This document shows, piece after piece, positions 3,176 through 15,068 of a stretch of 42,304 bases of DNA. Each line of letters starts with the position of its first letter. The stretch's first letter is position 1. Origin of the DNA: Butyrivibrio sp. (GTDB lineage: Bacteria; Bacillota; Clostridia; Lachnospirales; Lachnospiraceae); assembly GCA_023665525.1 (NCBI GenBank), contig JAMPDT010000007.1, positions 1-42,304 on the forward strand, read 5' to 3'. The notes below the pieces were generated by a model that was not told the origin of the DNA, did no database searches, and worked only from the letters and a program-made list of their open reading frames with translations. The translations under genes and the position numbers were made by a program.

Positions 3176-3204
3176 TTGGAAAAACCGAAAGGATATGTTA
3201 TAAT
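3176..3204 (+). promoter_or_regulatory. Promoter of the erm leader
   Basis: TTGGAA (3176-3181) and TATAAT (3199-3204) are separated by 17 bases, a near-consensus housekeeping promoter. Transcription should begin near 3211. That leaves an mRNA leader of about 320 bases before the erm start codon, beginning with a short hairpin (3217-3240, AGCTT pairing with AAGCT). Confidence 0.75.
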
Positions 3205-3262
3205 AATCGAAAACAATGTGGAGCTTAAACAAGCTGCACAGTAACAGAAAGGTGGCATTAGA

Positions 3263-3307
3263 GTGATTATTATTTGCTGCGCCCGTATCCGTATACAGGG
3301 GCGATAG
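3263..3307 (+). CDS. Erm leader peptide 1 (14 residues, Arg-Ile-Arg motif)
   Basis: GTG start with AAAGGTGG ending seven bases upstream, then 14 codons and TAG. The product reads MIIICCARIRIQGR. Residues 8-10 are Arg-Ile-Arg, which fits the +X+ pattern known from ErmD-type leaders to stall ribosomes in the presence of macrolides or ketolides. The first five codons (3263-3277) are also the 5' arm of a long inverted repeat whose other arm is 3352-3366, so ribosome position on this ORF should change leader folding. That it is translated is inferred from the ribosome site, the motif and the location upstream of erm. Confidence 0.65.
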   Translation: MIIICCARIRIQGR

Positions 3308-3366
3308 AAAAGCGGACACGGATTTTCCGTAAAAACGGGCTTTTTTGGCGTGCAAATAATTATCAC
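3263..3366 (+). promoter_or_regulatory. Long-range inverted repeat in erm leader RNA
   Basis: Bases 3263-3277 and 3352-3366 are complementary at 14 of 15 positions. Inside them, GCCCGT (3281-3286) can pair with ACGGGC (3335-3340), which is followed directly by six T residues, so this fold may also act as a first terminator. ACGGA and TCCGT (3319-3331) form a smaller hairpin. The structure covers leader peptide 1 and its Arg-Ile-Arg codons and ends just before the ribosome site of leader 2. Confidence 0.6.
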
Positions 3367-3382
3367 ATATAGGCGGTGCAGA

Positions 3383-3490
3383 ATGCGGTATACCCGTATC
3401 CGGCGCTTTTTGCCTTGTTGCTTGGTTATGGCAGGTAAAATTCCGTTTTTGGGAGTTTTGCCTGCTTTTTTATTGCCTTTTCAAAAATAA
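3383..3490 (+). CDS. Erm leader peptide 2 (35 residues, Arg-Ile-Arg-Arg motif)
   Basis: ATG start with AGGCGG seven bases upstream and TAA at 3488-3490. The first residues are MRYTRIRRFLP, giving a second Arg-Ile-Arg (residues 5-7, extending to Arg-8). The codons CGT ATC CG occur identically in leader 1, so the two small ORFs share both motif and DNA. The second half of the ORF (from 3431) overlaps an intrinsic terminator, so a translating or stalled ribosome could influence termination before erm. Confidence 0.6.
   Translation: MRYTRIRRFLPCCLVMAGKIPFLGVLPAFLLPFQK
3431..3472 (+). terminator. Intrinsic terminator / attenuator before erm
   Basis: GCAGGTAAAATTCC (3431-3444) pairs with GGAGTTTTGCCTGC (3452-3465) through Watson-Crick and two G-T pairs. 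The loop is short and six T residues follow (3466-3471). It lies inside leader ORF 2 and 57 bases before the erm start, so it must be bypassed for erm to be expressed. Premature termination relieved by drug-stalled ribosomes is the simplest model and has precedent in ermK. Confidence 0.7.
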
Positions 3491-3528
3491 GGGCGCGCGC
3501 CGTCCTATGTAAAAGAAGGAGGCAGACC

Positions 3529-4329
3529 ATGCAAAAGAGCGGCAGGCACATAAAAGCCGACGGCAGGGAGCGTTTACCGCTGTCGGATTCGCAAAATTTT
3601 ATTACTGAAAAAAGACTTATCCAAAGAATAGTTAATTTGAGCAATATTTCCAAAGACGATACGGTAATTGAAATCGGGACGGGAAAGGGACATCTGACGG
3701 ACGCGCTGTGCAGAAAGGGCGGCAGCGTCCGCTCGGTTGAGTTGGATCGCAGACTGTATGAGCGGGCGGGAGAAAGGCTTGGCAAATATGACAATCTCGA
3801 GCTGATTTGCGGTGATTTCCTGAAATATCCGCTGCCGCCAAAGGGGAGCTACAAGGTTTTTGCCAATATTCCGTATTTTATTACCGCGCGGATTGTAAAA
3901 AAGCTGACGGAGGCGAAGAACCCGCCCACGGACATATGGCTTGTTATGGAAAAGGGGGCGGCAAAGAGATTTATGGGGCTTCCGAGGGAAAGCGCGGCGT
4001 CCCTTTGCCTCAAGGTAAATTGGGAAATGAAGATTGCATATTACTTTCGCAGGGAGGATTTTCACCCTGCGCCGTCGGTTGATTCGGTGCTGCTTTATTT
4101 TTCAAGGAAAGCGATACCCGATTTGAGCGGCGGCGAACGCGCCGCGTTTGCCGAATTTGCCGCGCACTGTATGAAATACGGAATCTGCGGAAAAAGGGGA
4201 TTGCTGACCAAAAGGCAGGCGGAAACGGCGCTGAAACGGGCGGGAATGGCGCCGCTGCCGAGGGACGGGGTTATTTTGTACGTGCAGTGGCTCTGCCTGT
4301 TTCGATATTGGCTGAGGCTGAAGCATTGA
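3529..4329 (+). CDS. erm: Erm-type 23S rRNA adenine N6-methyltransferase
   Basis: 266 residues, within the usual Erm range. It has the N-terminal LSDSQNFITEKRLIQRIV block that Erm and KsgA enzymes share, the S-adenosylmethionine motif IEIGTGKGHLT (about residues 46-56), an acidic residue after strand 2 (VELDRR) and the catalytic NIPYFIT motif. Family members methylate A2058 of 23S rRNA and give resistance to macrolides, lincosamides and streptogramin B. KsgA is the alternative, but KsgA usually has NLPYY, and this gene follows a drug-leader architecture. AAGGAGG lies about eight bases upstream of the ATG. The specific Erm class is not assigned. No transfer genes adjoin it directly, so it may be an intrinsic chromosomal copy. 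Confidence 0.85.
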   Translation: MQKSGRHIKADGRERLPLSDSQNFITEKRLIQRIVNLSNISKDDTVIEIGTGKGHLTDALCRKGGSVRSVELDRRLYERAGERLGKYDNLELICGDFLKYPLPPKGSYKVFANIPYFITARIVKKLTEAKNPPTDIWLVMEKGAAKRFMGLPRESAASLCLKVNWEMKIAYYFRREDFHPAPSVDSVLLYFSRKAIPDLSGGERAAFAEFAAHCMKYGICGKRGLLTKRQAETALKRAGMAPLPRDGVILYVQWLCLFRYWLRLKH

Positions 4330-4531: not shown

Positions 4532-4936
4532 ATGATAATCGAGAGCTTACTGAAAAAGCGGAACATGACCAAATACAGGTTAGCCATAGACGCGGGAATC
4601 CCACACGCTACCCTCAACGATATATGCAGCGGAAAGACAAGGCTGGAAAAATGCTCCGCCGAAACGGTATACAAGCTTGCAAAGGCGCTTGACGTGTCAA
4701 TGGAGCTGCTGACTGCCGAAGGGCTTCATCAGGCGCAGCGGGAACGCTCCTATGAATACGGTCTGCCCGCCTATTTGCAGCATGATTTGGACGCATACAA
4801 AGAGGGGCTGAAAAACAAATCGCCGCTGCTCGACTGTCTGTGGGGAGAGCTGTACGGCAGCATCAACATCGCGGAGATCAACGACGGCGTAATCACGAAG
4901 GAACACGCAGACTATCTGAGAGAAAAGTATCTTTAA
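4532..4936 (+). CDS. HipB-like Xre-family antitoxin/repressor
   Basis: 134 residues from ATG 4532. AGAGAGG lies about ten bases upstream; the longer open frame from 4340 crosses the promoter and is not used. Residues 1-62 are a helix-turn-helix of the Xre/Cro type (MTKYRLAIDAGIPHATLNDI, then VYKLAKALDVSMELL). The C-terminal half is acidic, with a repeated Tyr/Leu pattern, and probably binds the partner kinase. The downstream HipA-like gene starts 14 bases after the stop, so the two are co-transcribed from the promoter holding the palindrome at 4490. The inferred role is neutralising the kinase and repressing the operon. Confidence 0.8.
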   Translation: MIIESLLKKRNMTKYRLAIDAGIPHATLNDICSGKTRLEKCSAETVYKLAKALDVSMELLTAEGLHQAQRERSYEYGLPAYLQHDLDAYKEGLKNKSPLLDCLWGELYGSINIAEINDGVITKEHADYLREKYL

Positions 4937-4950
4937 GGGAGTGAGAGTAA

Positions 4951-5895
4951 GTGATTGAGGGAATAGATTTTACAGATTGCCGTGTGGTACTTGGCAAGGC
5001 ATACAACGGGGCAAACGGAAAGAAAATTGCTGTGGAATACAACGGAACGCTGTATATGTTGAAATTTCCGCCCTCGGGCAAGAATAAGCCCACGGAGCTT
5101 TCCTACACCAATAGCTGCTTCAGCGAGCATATCGCAAGCAGTATCTTCAACCTGATCGGCGTAAAAGCCCATGAAACCCTGCTCGGGACCTTCAAGGTCG
5201 GCGGCAAGGAAAAAATCGTCTGCGCCTGCAAAGACTTCACGGCGGACGGAAAGCGGTTCTTTGATTTCTGCTCCATCAAAAATACGATTTTAGAATCGGA
5301 TTCAAACGGGACGGGAACGGAGCTTGAGGATATTCTCGACACCATCGAAAAGCAGCGGTATGTACCGTCGGAGGAGTTGGAAAAATACTTTTGGGATGTA
5401 TTTGCAGTGGACGCGCTGCTTGGTAATTTCGACCGTCACAACGGCAACTGGGGCTTCCTGTTCGATGATAGCACGGGAGAAGCGAGTCTTGCGCCCATCT
5501 ATGACTGCGGAAGCTGTCTGCTGCCGCAGGCTGACGAAAGAATTATGAACGAGGTGCTGACAAACGAGGACGCGCTGAATGCGCGAATCTATCAGTACCC
5601 GACCTCCGCCATCAAGCAGAACGGCAGGAAAATCAATTACCGTGATTTTCTTATGAGCGCGGAATACGAGGGCTGCAATAAGGCGGTAAAGCGGATTGTG
5701 CCTCGTATCAATTTCGATAAGCTTGGCGCGCTGATTGATGAAGCGCCGTATCTGTCCGAAATGCAAAGGAAGTTTTATATGCATTATATCAAAGCAAGGT
5801 ATGATAGGATCCTTGCTCCGGCGTTGGATTTGGCAGTAAGCCTTGAACAGGAACAAAACGATTCCGTAATGGGAGTGCAGCAAGCAGACAGTTAA
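4951..5895 (+). CDS. HipA/CtkA-like Ser/Thr kinase toxin
   Basis: 314 residues from GTG 4951, with AAGGGAG upstream. The catalytic loop GNFDRHNGNWGF (about residues 159-170) has the Asp and Asn arrangement of HipA kinases, and PIYDCGSCL (about 183-191) is the metal-binding Asp motif. The N-terminal LYMLKFPPSGK carries the likely ATP-binding lysine. It lacks the separate HipA N1 domain, so it is closer to the short CtkA/HipA_C proteins. Family members phosphorylate translation-related proteins such as glutamyl-tRNA synthetase and slow growth; the target here is unknown. The terminator at 5900 follows the stop immediately, closing a two-gene unit. Confidence 0.82.
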   Translation: MIEGIDFTDCRVVLGKAYNGANGKKIAVEYNGTLYMLKFPPSGKNKPTELSYTNSCFSEHIASSIFNLIGVKAHETLLGTFKVGGKEKIVCACKDFTADGKRFFDFCSIKNTILESDSNGTGTELEDILDTIEKQRYVPSEELEKYFWDVFAVDALLGNFDRHNGNWGFLFDDSTGEASLAPIYDCGSCLLPQADERIMNEVLTNEDALNARIYQYPTSAIKQNGRKINYRDFLMSAEYEGCNKAVKRIVPRINFDKLGALIDEAPYLSEMQRKFYMHYIKARYDRILAPALDLAVSLEQEQNDSVMGVQQADS

Positions 5896-11385: not shown

Positions 11386-11668
11386 GCTGCGGCGCATCCG
11401 CAGCGAAGGCGACGACAGGCAGGGGCATTAAAGATACTTCCGTCCAGTCCTAAAGCCGAGCGTTGAAGCGGTATTTTGTACCGTGGGCCGTCGCAGCAAA
11501 GGAGGGCGGCCCGGTGAGATCCACGGGGTGGTGAGATTCCAATGAGGCCAAATGCATGGCCGGAAAGTGCGTTCCCGTTTGCCGAGGGATGGCGTGGATC
11601 GAATATCGGCGGAAAACGATTGATACGAAACGGCAGGCGGCTGCTTGTTATGAGAACAGGCAGCCGCC
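11386..11668 (+). ncRNA. Candidate structured RNA upstream of mazF
   Basis: A gene-free stretch with a dense series of hairpins: GCTGCGG/CCGCAGC (11386-11404); CGGTA/TACCG (11469-11483); GGGCCG/CGGCCC (11485-11512); an 8-base stem GATCCACG/CGTGGATC (11518-11525 with 11593-11600) that encloses TTCC-GGCCA/TGGCC-GGAA (11537-11565); and a strong GGCGGCTGC/GCAGCCGCC hairpin (11636-11668) followed by GTTTACTT. A -35-like TTGACA lies at 11289, but no good -10 follows it. No convincing protein frame exists on either strand. It could be an independent RNA, a long leader of mazF, or part of the element's end or recombination site. Not matched to a known RNA family. Confidence 0.45.
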
Positions 11669-11693: not shown

Positions 11694-12062
11694 ATGGAAA
11701 TTAAGAGGGGCGATATTTATTTTGCCAATTTAAGCCCGGTTGTCGGTAGCGAACAGGGCGGCATCCGTCCGGTACTGATTGTTCAGAATGATGTGGGGAA
11801 CCGTTATAGCCCTACGGTTATTGTTGCAGCAATTACCAGCAGAAGAAAAAGGTCAATGCCAACCCATGTACACCTCTTGAAAAAGGAAGGGCTGCCTATG
11901 GTTTCCACCGTCATGCTTGAACATCTGCGGGCTATAGATCGTACACGGCTTACACACTATATTGGGAGGCTGGATGGGAACAGCATGGCAGATATTAATA
12001 AAGCTATTTCTGTAAGTTTGGGATTGGAAATAGAACCGAAAACTAATTATGGCTATCGCTAG
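11694..12062 (+). CDS. mazF: MazF/PemK-family endoribonuclease toxin
   Basis: 122 residues, standard length. It has the hallmark KRGDIYFANLSPVVGSEQGG at the N terminus, RPVLIVQND, then VIVAAITSR and a C-terminal GRLDGNSMADINKAISVSLGL helix. The family cleaves mRNA at short sequence motifs and stops growth. GGAGG lies six bases upstream of the ATG. No MazE-like antitoxin frame is visible upstream (the preceding 485 bases appear non-coding) or before the integrase downstream. It is therefore an orphan by position, as is seen for MazF genes inside some clostridial mobile elements. Confidence 0.88.
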   Translation: MEIKRGDIYFANLSPVVGSEQGGIRPVLIVQNDVGNRYSPTVIVAAITSRRKRSMPTHVHLLKKEGLPMVSTVMLEHLRAIDRTRLTHYIGRLDGNSMADINKAISVSLGLEIEPKTNYGYR

Positions 12063-12162
12063 GTTATGGCCTTGCAAAAAGTGATTATTTATTGTTTTTT
12101 TGCTGGATATATCAAGCAGCTTCGAGTATCCTGTGTATGCAGCTAGGGAAGGAGGACGGACG

Positions 12163-13278
12163 ATGAAACGATACGCCGTAAAAATGGTTGCCGAAGGGAA
12201 ACGGAAATTTTATTACATTGAAGATCAGGAAAACTTTTGCATTGTCCCGTTCCCAAGCAAATTCCTAAAGCATAAAACTGAGTCGAACCGTTCGCCCAAT
12301 ACGGTGAAACGGCTCGCTTTCTCCCTGTGCTGCTACATGGAATACCTTGCAGAGCAGAAAATGGGGGTGGATGAAGTTGGGAGATTAGGGTTTGAAGAAC
12401 AGAGCAGGCATTTTGTGCAATTCCTTTACTGGCTGAAGGAAGGAAAACATATTACGGACAACCGCATAGGGACTACAGGGAACGGAACCTGCAACGCATA
12501 CCTTAAGGATGTGTTCGGGTTCTTTTTGTATCTTGCCGACTGCGGATGTGCCAAACCGTTGAAAGTATTATCCTATAACCAGATTACAGTTGCAAATGCT
12601 GCCGGCGTGAAACGGACAATCCGTTCCCAATCCTTTAAAGGATATTTCAGACCGAAAGATCGGAATGTCCGGGCGGCTGAGGAAAATGAAATTGTCGATA
12701 TTTTGAAGGCCTGTACGAACATCCGTGATCAACTTCTTCTGCTGCTCCTTGCGGAAACAGGGTTCCGTATTGGGGAATTGCTCGGCGTGGATTATACAAG
12801 GGATATTGATTATCAAAACCATACCATCAGCGTATATTTTCGGGAGGATAACGATAACAATGCCCGTGCTAAGAATGCAGAATTCCGCCGTGCCAAAATC
12901 AGCGATGATGCCTTCCATTTCCTTCTGCACTATATGAATCAATATAAAAAGCTACTGCAGCGGCAGACGTTCCTGTTTATCAATATCGCTGGAGAAACTG
13001 CAGGTCAGCCCTTAAAGGTAGAAAGCGTCAACGATATGTTAGAGCGGATGGAAAAGAAAACAGGCGTGAAGCTGACAGCCCATATGTTCCGGAGATATTT
13101 TGCCAATGCACGATGGAATGCAGGGTGGTCGCTGGAATTAATCAGTCAGGCGCTCGGACACAAGCATTTGGACACGACGATTAAATACCTTGGCATACTT
13201 GATGACAAACTGACAGAGGCCAGCCGGGAATTTTATGAACAGCATTCCAGTCTTTATGGAATCGAACAATTATTGTAA
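12163..13278 (+). CDS. Tyrosine recombinase, TnpA-like (first of three)
   Basis: 371 residues from ATG 12163, seven bases after AAGGAGG; the frame is open further upstream without a ribosome site. The catalytic domain has Arg in ETGFRIGELL, His-x-x-Arg in AHMFRRYF, a second His in LGHKHLDTTIKYLG and the nucleophile Tyr in that last motif. Length and position match TnpA of Tn554-type transposons, which move by site-specific recombination using TnpA, TnpB and TnpC. It is followed 14 bases later by the second recombinase. Confidence 0.85.
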   Translation: MKRYAVKMVAEGKRKFYYIEDQENFCIVPFPSKFLKHKTESNRSPNTVKRLAFSLCCYMEYLAEQKMGVDEVGRLGFEEQSRHFVQFLYWLKEGKHITDNRIGTTGNGTCNAYLKDVFGFFLYLADCGCAKPLKVLSYNQITVANAAGVKRTIRSQSFKGYFRPKDRNVRAAEENEIVDILKACTNIRDQLLLLLLAETGFRIGELLGVDYTRDIDYQNHTISVYFREDNDNNARAKNAEFRRAKISDDAFHFLLHYMNQYKKLLQRQTFLFINIAGETAGQPLKVESVNDMLERMEKKTGVKLTAHMFRRYFANARWNAGWSLELISQALGHKHLDTTIKYLGILDDKLTEASREFYEQHSSLYGIEQLL

Positions 13279-13292
13279 AGGGGATGAGAACT

Positions 13293-15068
13293 ATGCTCGC
13301 ACAGATATTGGGCCAATCCCAGCATCGGGAAAATATGGAACAGCTTAAGGCTCAATTGAAAGCGGAGCTGGACGAATGCACAGAGGCAAAGGCTACAGGG
13401 CGAAATCATGTCATGGAGTTCATGGCGCAGAATGGAATTTGGCATATTTCAGATTTGGATTATCCGCTGCGGCAACAGTTTCAAAAGGATTTGGAGCGAA
13501 AGAATTTTGTGAATGGTACAATTCGCTCCTATTTACAAGCATACGATAGAATCAAGCAGCATTCCGCACAGCGGAAAATGCGGCTGATTGCCGGCGGTGA
13601 AGCTGTAAAACCAGCCTATAAGAATGAAATCCTTTTTTTGCCGCATCATCCTAATACACAGATTGCAAGACAGTTTATAAAGGCAATAAAGAAAGAAGAC
13701 CTTGTGTGGGATTTTACGAGAAATGTGCCGGAAAAGTTAAAGCGTCAGGTGTATGATATCCTTCATTACGCTTTAGGCAATGAAATGAGCTCCGAAACAA
13801 CAAGAATAAATTTGCTGGGATTGCGGGCGTTATATGATTTTTGCTCAAAAGAAGGGATAGATGACATTGAGCAGTTAGAACTCCATCAAGCTAAGCGTTT
13901 TGTGGAAAAGACGAATGCAAGGATAAATTCTGAGAAACTGGTTGGCGCATTGTATTTTTGCCGCAAGGCGCTTTTTATGCAGGAAGATGAAATCCATTGG
14001 GACGCTCCCATATGGTACATGGAGCGCATCCATTTGCAGCCGGAACGCATTGATAAGGCATCGCCAGTTGTTCATATTTCATTTTTGGAAGTCACTAATA
14101 AAAAGAACCGGGAACTGTTGCAGCAGTATGCCAGGTATGGGATTGGGCTTACTAATTTATCTATCAACAAGTTAAGGTCAGAAATTACCTGCATTCGGAC
14201 TTTTTTAGCAGAACTGGATCAAGATGAAACAGAAAATATCTGTATGATTAGCCCGTCACAGATGGATGCATATTTCAAAAAGGAGCGCTATCGGGATGTG
14301 CAAGCAGAAACGTATAATAAAAAACTGATGAACATCCTACACTTTTTTGTATTTTTGCAAGCCAGACGCTATATTGAGAAAATCCCGTTTGATGCAGATT
14401 ACCATTTGATGAAACTGCAGCCAACCCATCATGATAGAAGTGTACCGCAGCAGGTGGTAAATGAAATTTTCAATAAGCTGTACGCTTTCCCTGAGCATCT
14501 TCGTTTGATGTTCCTGCACCTGTGGGGGACTGGGCTGCGAATCAGTGAAATATGTGAGCTTAAGAGCGACGCCTATTACATACAGGGACAGGATGCGTGG
14601 CTCCAAGTGTACCAAACTAAAATGCGCGATTACAAGCGAATCCCTATACCGTCCGCCTTATATCTCCTAATGCAGGTTTATTTGAAAAAATATGATATAA
14701 AAGCGGGTTCGTATGTATTTCCAAATCAAAAAGGCGAAGCGTATAGCAGCCGCAATTTTCGGAAGCAGATGCAGGAAAACTGCAAAAAGCTGCGAATTCA
14801 AGATGGAAAGTACACATTTAAATGCCATGATTACCGTCATACGTTGGCCACCTATTATTATGATTCAGATGTCCCGCTACAGAGCATCCGGGACTATCTG
14901 GGTCATGTGTACGAAGAAATGACGCAGCAGTATGTGGACTATATGCCGAAACGGATTGAAAAGGCCAATGAAGAATATTTCAGTCAGCATAGTATTGCCG
15001 CTGATATCGAAAGAGAGGGGTCGGACATTAATGGAGAACAAGATATGGCTTTTGGATTTATACGATAA
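13293..15068 (+). CDS. Tyrosine recombinase, TnpB-like (second of three)
   Basis: 591 residues from ATG 13293, with AAAGGGG about nine bases upstream; the ATG at 13284 overlaps the ribosome site. A long N-terminal core-binding region precedes the catalytic domain: GTGLRISEICEL (Arg), YQTKMRDYKRIPIP (Lys), KCHDYRHTLATYYY (His-x-x-Arg) and LGHVYEEMTQQYVDY (His, Tyr). The length suits TnpB of Tn554-like elements (about 630 residues). Its 3' end overlaps the next gene by 38 bases, which implies coupled translation and fixed stoichiometry. Confidence 0.85.
   Translation: MLAQILGQSQHRENMEQLKAQLKAELDECTEAKATGRNHVMEFMAQNGIWHISDLDYPLRQQFQKDLERKNFVNGTIRSYLQAYDRIKQHSAQRKMRLIAGGEAVKPAYKNEILFLPHHPNTQIARQFIKAIKKEDLVWDFTRNVPEKLKRQVYDILHYALGNEMSSETTRINLLGLRALYDFCSKEGIDDIEQLELHQAKRFVEKTNARINSEKLVGALYFCRKALFMQEDEIHWDAPIWYMERIHLQPERIDKASPVVHISFLEVTNKKNRELLQQYARYGIGLTNLSINKLRSEITCIRTFLAELDQDETENICMISPSQMDAYFKKERYRDVQAETYNKKLMNILHFFVFLQARRYIEKIPFDADYHLMKLQPTHHDRSVPQQVVNEIFNKLYAFPEHLRLMFLHLWGTGLRISEICELKSDAYYIQGQDAWLQVYQTKMRDYKRIPIPSALYLLMQVYLKKYDIKAGSYVFPNQKGEAYSSRNFRKQMQENCKKLRIQDGKYTFKCHDYRHTLATYYYDSDVPLQSIRDYLGHVYEEMTQQYVDYMPKRIEKANEEYFSQHSIAADIEREGSDINGEQDMAFGFIR

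Follow-up and report, generated by a model that had tools for sequence, protein, structure and literature searches.

The window analysed here by computation, a stretch of 42,304 nt from a Butyrivibrio sp. genome, carries a putative erm gene preceded by a 350-nt leader. The broad NCBIfam Erm model NF000499 matched the gene product at 212.9 bits, barely above its cut-off of 212, and PF00398 matched it at 133 bits, with none of the allele-specific NCBIfam erm models reaching its cut-off. By the broad-model cut-off, which it just exceeds, the gene can be assigned to Erm, and methylation of A2058 is predicted.

The host genome (190 contigs, 2.52 Mb) contains a second copy that is probably RsmA, and searching the genus revealed, in four other genomes, only matches resembling this second copy. 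The plasmid search gave no closer erm relatives. Viral contigs yielded three loci at 32-34% identity to the window erm, which we take to be ErmB, and a further search of the viral contigs, with A2, gave none. Counting the host, 8 of 250 family genomes matched at E 1e-30 or better; in the order, with the limit at E 1e-40, there were 12 matches among 392 genomes (11 relatives and the window). The gene appears to be patchily distributed, as only 4 of 397 family genomes, host included, match at E 1e-60 or better. A scan of genome contigs gave 416 erm relatives, the best 80 of which were taken (48-69% identity, 45 of them titled Lachnospiraceae); the closest relative among these 80 is 69% identical to the window erm.

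Other features of the contig include an HTH regulator gene and, behind it, a HipA-like gene (4532-5895), which adjoin erm and are a possible toxin-antitoxin pair, and two neighbouring phage-integrase-family genes (12100-15068), which perhaps mark a mobile element. A pemK RNA (RF02913, 65.4 bits) lies at 11428-11545, and from its sequence the ORF 3' of it (11695-12063) looks like a PemK-type toxin gene.

The features of the erm locus, in order, are:

3176-3204, + strand: candidate promoter TTGGAA, 17 nt, TG-TATAAT, by consensus match only (10/12)
3248-3255, + strand: ORF1 ribosome-binding site AAAGGTGG, with a similar motif 5' of ORF1 in related leaders
3263-3307, + strand: ORF1, leader peptide MIIICCARIRIQGR, GTG start, TAG stop, RIR at residues 8-10
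3263-3277, + strand: 5' arm of P1, the putative anti-antiterminator helix (inverted repeat, covariation, own versus swapped duplexes)
3284-3292, + strand: Arg8-Ile9-Arg10 codons CGT ATC CGT, the predicted drug-dependent stall site, with Ile9 placed in the P site by analogy with ErmDL
3326-3346, + strand: small hairpin and T run in the P1 loop, the 3' half being part of the antiterminator 5' strand
3331-3344, + strand: putative antiterminator 5' strand, in the P1 loop, complementary to 3437-3450 (86% over 14 nt)
3352-3366, + strand: 3' arm of P1, on the same evidence as the 5' arm
3371-3414, + strand: P2, a variable hairpin that would cap the antiterminator and contains the ORF2 start (folding, leader comparison)
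3383-3490, + strand: ORF2, MRYTRIRRFLPCCLVMAGKIPFLGVLPAFLLPFQK, ATG start, RIRR at residues 5-8, probably no sensor
3430-3471, + strand: T2, intrinsic terminator hairpin and T run, predicted from sequence, inside ORF2
3437-3450, + strand: putative antiterminator 3' strand, formed by the T2 5' arm and loop (complementarity, folding)
3516-3522, + strand: erm ribosome-binding site AAGGAGG, from the sequence
3529-4329, + strand: erm, putative 23S rRNA adenine methyltransferase, 266 aa (NF000499 and PF00398 matches)

The promoter, ORF1, ORF2, a 15-base inverted repeat and T2 had been named in an original prediction made from this DNA, and all are present at the positions it gave. The long-range repeat (3263-3277/3352-3366) includes the ORF1 start, as claimed, and corresponds to P1; the terminator lies within ORF2, with 15 pairs in 3430-3466 followed by T's. 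The antiterminator formed by 3331-3344 and 3437-3450 was absent from that description.

Taken alone, the promoter match is not strong, because 11 promoter-like sites occur in the 3-kb region and shuffled versions hold 4.7 on average, and the terminator scan alone is no evidence, because 4 terminator-like sites were found against 3.7 in shuffles. The 350-nt leader folds better than shuffled versions of itself (z -3.7, with 1 of 100 shuffles equally good), and the predicted fold energy of T2 is -22.9 kcal/mol. No Rfam 15 family matches the window leader; the element, found in 39 dereplicated leaders mostly titled Lachnospiraceae, is absent from that collection. All 39 compared leaders share one order of elements: ribosome site, ORF1, small hairpin with T run, a segment that complements the ORF1 start, a variable region that is often a hairpin (P2), T2 and the erm ribosome site, with T2 detected in 38 of the 39 dereplicated leaders (L076 being without it). 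The T run at 3341-3346 was considered as a first terminator and rejected, the preceding hairpin being better explained as holding the antiterminator strand; this small hairpin and its T run may act as a pause site or weak terminator as well.

Conservation of the leader peptide

Leaders were sought within 560 nt upstream of erm as ORFs of 6-20 codons with a ribosome site and an R-X-R motif, at 91 loci comprising the 80 best relatives, 12 others (L014-L024 and L109) and the window, minus two with short upstream DNA. Such a leader precedes erm at 80 of the 91 loci, compared with 88 of 910 base-shuffled upstream regions and 1 of 91 opposite strands. Among the 11 loci lacking R-X-R, two have K-S-R (L042 and L066) and one has RIRIR farther upstream (L056). 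Thr, Ile or Leu fills the X position in 78 of the 80 leaders, and the Arg codons of the motif include CGT, CGC, CGG, CGA, AGA and AGG (L053 and L022 having been entered in the codon table with another ORF or motif). As the Arg codons vary synonymously and X is nearly always one of three residues, it is the ORF1 peptide that is kept. The original prediction had looked to related leaders for conservation of the RIR codons, and for ORF1 this holds at the level of the motif, through varying codons.

A short +X+ leader is also present in all 11 relatives from the order. In four leaders (L048, L055, L062 and L068) the peptide ends directly after RTR and the following nucleotides remain similar, as expected if nothing past the motif is required. 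Outside the 91-locus criterion, inspection of the other seven family loci of the E 1e-30 search and of the three viral loci showed no R-X-R leader on the gene strand; L004 (KIR) and L011 have weak, Lys-containing +X+ ORFs. The leaders MTHSMRIRK (L080), MLYSMRIRK (L082) and MTASIRLR (L085), which precede more distant erm genes, closely resemble the ErmD/ErmK and Msr/Mef leaders given in the available part of PMC4335068.

Long-range pairing and the predicted switch

The leader sample was drawn from 51 loci and the window, L047, L072 and lower-identity loci having been excluded earlier and three loci re-anchored; removal of L061, L075, L103 and L107 left 48, and of nine near-duplicates, 39. For the duplex and mask tests L076, with no detected T2, was replaced by L109 (again 39 leaders), and for column-wise covariation of the antiterminator L056 was also omitted (38 leaders).

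P1, a 15-nt helix of 93% complementarity, shows two-sided changes in 8 of 11 pairs, compared with none in six further pairs of the small hairpin, which are formed in 96.0% of cells. Over all 17 pairs, 44 cells carry a two-sided change (13.7 in shuffles, 7-30 in slid versions) and the covariation score is 0.254 (0.123 in shuffles, at most 0.111 in slid versions), values inflated by the relatedness of the leaders. Eight or more doubly changed pairs also occur in two slid versions (with 8 and 9 pairs) and in 11 of 500 shuffles; for cells, share paired and covariation score of P1, no slid version reaches the observed value. Across the 39 leaders, differing ORF1 starts keep matching P1 3' arms: own strands pair at -21.8 kcal/mol, 5.5 kcal/mol better than swapped strands (-16.4), with shuffled strands at -10.1, a difference likewise inflated by relatedness. 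Unaided, RNAalifold placed the outer helix in a different register, and among the parts listed of its whole-alignment fold there was neither P1 nor the antiterminator.

The antiterminator strands pair at -21.4 kcal/mol with their own partners, -19.8 when swapped and -8.1 when shuffled (39 leaders), in duplexes of 16-23 pairs (median 22) that are interrupted in many leaders. In 38 leaders 86.6% of antiterminator cells are paired, against 50-63% in slid versions; column-wise covariation is weak, with 70-242 of 500 swaps equalling the observed values. The support for this element thus lies in a strand complementarity far above that of shuffled strands.

At -15.8 kcal/mol the window antiterminator is less stable than the average of -21.4 kcal/mol, which would be in keeping with a constitutive erm whose leader, repeats and terminator are relics of a switch. 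Against this stand the retention in the window of ORF1 with its ribosome site, of P1 at -25.2 kcal/mol, of T2 and of an open 266-codon erm frame, and loss of function is considered exceedingly improbable.

The effect of a stalled ribosome was modelled by masking an assumed footprint over the ORF1 RXR codons, using equilibrium rather than co-transcriptional folding. In unmasked transcripts ending in the T2 loop P1 forms, and the T2 5' arm barely pairs with the T-run region; with ORF1 masked, the T-run region is predicted to pair with the T2 5' arm and loop, which would prevent T2. A predicted antiterminator value above 0.3 was reached in none of the 39 free leaders and in 25 of the 39 when ORF1 was masked, compared with 2 of 39 when P2 and 6 of 39 when the first 20 nt were masked. 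In the window leader masking of ORF1 raised the value from 0 to 0.83, or 0.77 with the arm shifted by one base. The 14 leaders that stayed below 0.3 under the ORF1 mask include L081 and L031, whose erm genes are closest to that of the window.

ORF2 and the question of a second sensor

The original prediction had proposed an attenuator in two steps, in which stalls at the RIR of ORF1 and the RIRR of ORF2 are both needed to pass T2. ORF2 does have an ATG, a ribosome site and RIRR, and the identity claimed for the two frames is borne out: the common stretch CCCGTATCCG occurs at 3282-3291 and 3393-3402, giving CGT ATC CG in both, with the third, Arg, codon differing (CGT in ORF1, CGG in ORF2). The repeat is mildly unlikely to be due to chance, since a 10-base match to ORF1 arises in 1.3% of 4000 shuffles of the ORF2 region (1.8% when compared with all upstream leader sequence). 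Of the shuffles, 2.1% yield an ATG-started ORF that has both a ribosome site and +X+, and 7.8% do so when any start codon is allowed; the rarity of the repeat and of such an ORF makes a local duplication a possible origin of the ORF2 RIRR.

Comparison with related leaders points the other way. RIRR is absent from its place in all 38 other leaders, the erm genes of which are at most 69% identical to the window's, and a start with a ribosome site and +X+ occurs in the ORF2 region of only one of them, L031 (TTG, KFR). By looser counts R-X-R motifs are common in this region: with no ribosome site required, 7 of the 39 leaders, among them the window's, have one in the first 12 codons from a start, and 12 of 39 have one in some frame. 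The open frame over T2 is similarly ordinary, since ATG-started frames reach T2 in 23 of 39 leaders, again counting the window, and ORF2 begins inside P2, the least conserved part of the leader.

The second frame would also be poorly placed for the proposed role. The prediction had given both ORFs a ribosome site, which is upheld for ORF1; that of ORF2, AGGCGG, is a weak one within a predicted hairpin, with a mean unpaired value of 0.11, and 0.07 for the start codon. In the predicted fold, masking ORF2 alone frees no window antiterminator (0.0), and masking both ORFs gives 0.53, less than the 0.77 obtained with ORF1 alone. By simple arithmetic, a ribosome on RIRR would, with the assumed footprint, reach to about 3414, 5' of T2. 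The prediction had in addition treated the double-sensor arrangement as apparently undescribed; a leader region with two small ORFs would not be new: in the available parts of the sources, two leader peptides are reported for ermA (PMC8615237) and ermB (PMC8274638), and two attenuators with two leaders for mefA/msrD (PMC10314930). The latter two systems (PMC8274638, PMC10314930) offer a precedent for a two-sensor arrangement in the window, which we nevertheless regard as very unlikely; on the conservation, accessibility and mask tests ORF2 is probably not a second sensor.

A probable attenuator with one sensor, and its counterparts

It is likely that erm is controlled by a single-sensor, ribosome-mediated transcription attenuator. 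This reading draws on a conserved ORF1 motif, a covarying P1, antiterminator strands that stay complementary in the relatives, the conserved T2 and the predicted fold switch, from which we infer ORF1 translation, drug-dependent stalling, termination and read-through, and the identity of the inducing drugs. Of the drug-dependent attenuator originally proposed, comparison and folding thus favour the attenuator and its +X+ sensor in ORF1, and speak against two sensors acting in two steps.

Without drug, the ribosome would translate ORF1 and depart, allowing the ORF1 start to pair with 3352-3366 as P1. The antiterminator strand would then stay engaged in the P1 loop, T2 would form, and transcription would end before erm. 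With a macrolide or ketolide bound, the ribosome would stall at Arg8-Ile9-Arg10 of ORF1 and cover the P1 5' arm, and 3331-3344 would therefore pair with 3437-3450. The resulting antiterminator would take up the T2 5' arm and loop, with P2 as its cap, and RNA polymerase would proceed into erm. ORF2 would be a dispensable open frame arising from the P2 and T2 sequences.

The leader might instead act by translational attenuation, its main effect being to hide the erm ribosome site and termination coming second, or both levels being combined as in tlrB (described in part in PMC6851288). In a more distant group, of which L016 is an example, the RIR codons seem, by eye, complementary to the sequence just 5' of the erm ribosome site; in the window's own clade that site is preceded by a conserved T2 and conserved antiterminator strands, and for the window control at the level of translation is judged improbable. 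Within L016-L023, where the leaders lie mostly within ~150 nt before erm, the complementarity of the RIR codons, clearest in L016, suggests a translational or mixed switch.

If the single-sensor attenuator holds, drug-inducible macrolide resistance with an RXR sensor would be common in Lachnospiraceae, and the leaders would offer a natural collection of variants with which to find the residues flanking +X+ that determine drug specificity.

A covariance model of the 5' part of the leader, searched in the 397 family genomes, gave 17 matches, of which four are erm leaders, one of them that of the window, and the remaining 13 are these:

about 1480-1800, along the gene: leader and gene start of L116-L128, matched by the covariance model in 13 of the 397 family genomes

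In all four of these 13 loci with downstream DNA read, an MFS gene lies 3' of the leader, and the other nine have the leader and gene-start motif at the same places. The two MFS genes scanned matched Mef(A) best (542 and 556 bits, below the cut-off of 675). Their leaders contain no RXR: ten read MLICVR-stop, identical over the stretch printed, and three MLIFVR-stop. The three that were folded show the switch predicted for the erm leaders, as placing the mask at the stop codon raised the predicted antiterminator from 0 to 0.64-0.69. The sequence shared around the ribosome site and start suggests common descent of these leaders and those of erm. It can be tentatively proposed, with slightly less than even confidence, that one P1-antiterminator-terminator scaffold has carried exchangeable sensors, RXR before erm and the six-codon MLI(C/F)VR-stop before Mef(A)-like genes, the sensor having changed and the switch having been kept; if so, the scaffold would show how such sensors evolve. 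The MLI(C/F)VR leader would stall differently, perhaps at its stop codon in the manner of MsrDL (MYLIFM), which is described, in the accessible part of PMC10314930, as blocking termination on its own stop codon. The likeness to MsrDL is a lead only.

In the library searched, no publication joins Lachnospiraceae, Erm, leader peptide and attenuation, which is no proof of absence in print. According to the available part of PMC13170274, all erm subfamilies sit behind a stalling leader; the portions available of that paper, PMC10219788 and PMC11264731 hold nothing on the window leader. The comparisons that follow likewise draw on excerpts of the cited papers.

The tlrB leader (RYR) of Bacillus subtilis is similar in that stalling at RXR governs a terminator that precedes the gene of an rRNA methyltransferase; it differs in that the ribosome directly covers the terminator base, in its SD-sequestering hairpin and NusG pausing, and in the enzyme, RlmAII (PMC6851288). 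On ErmDL the ribosome stalls at RLR, Leu7 occupying the P site; +X+ is required when the drug is telithromycin and is dispensable when it is erythromycin (PMC8298421). The ErmD-type ermK of Bacillus licheniformis, with the leader MTHSMRLRFPTLNQ, shares with the window an erm gene, a +X+ leader and transcription attenuation with an antiterminator (PMC4335068, PMC5418344, PMC8298421), and is described as being of the same kind as the hflXr and mef(E)/mel order (PMC5418344). The peptides differ, that of the window having ARIRIQGR and those of many relatives RCARTRIQGQ.

The closest parallels in layout control other resistance genes. The 327-base mef(E)/mel leader of Streptococcus pneumoniae encodes Mef(E)L, MTASMRLR, and has no discernible homology even to the erm(K) leader; like the window leader it combines a short +X+ peptide with two repeats, the first lying just 3' of it and released when the ribosome stalls, the second overlapping with an intrinsic terminator, the genes controlled being efflux genes and the likeness being to the described design (PMC4335068). 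In hflXr/rli80 of Listeria monocytogenes, a different resistance gene likened by its described order, a +X+ leader, an anti-antiterminator over the ORF, an antiterminator and a terminator follow one another in the same way (PMC6310831). Four attenuator features of this type were found in the window leader, namely the +X+ ORF, the anti-antiterminator, the antiterminator (as a predicted fold) and the terminator, and the window leader would thus follow the published mef(E)/mel and hflXr design, with a putative sensor.
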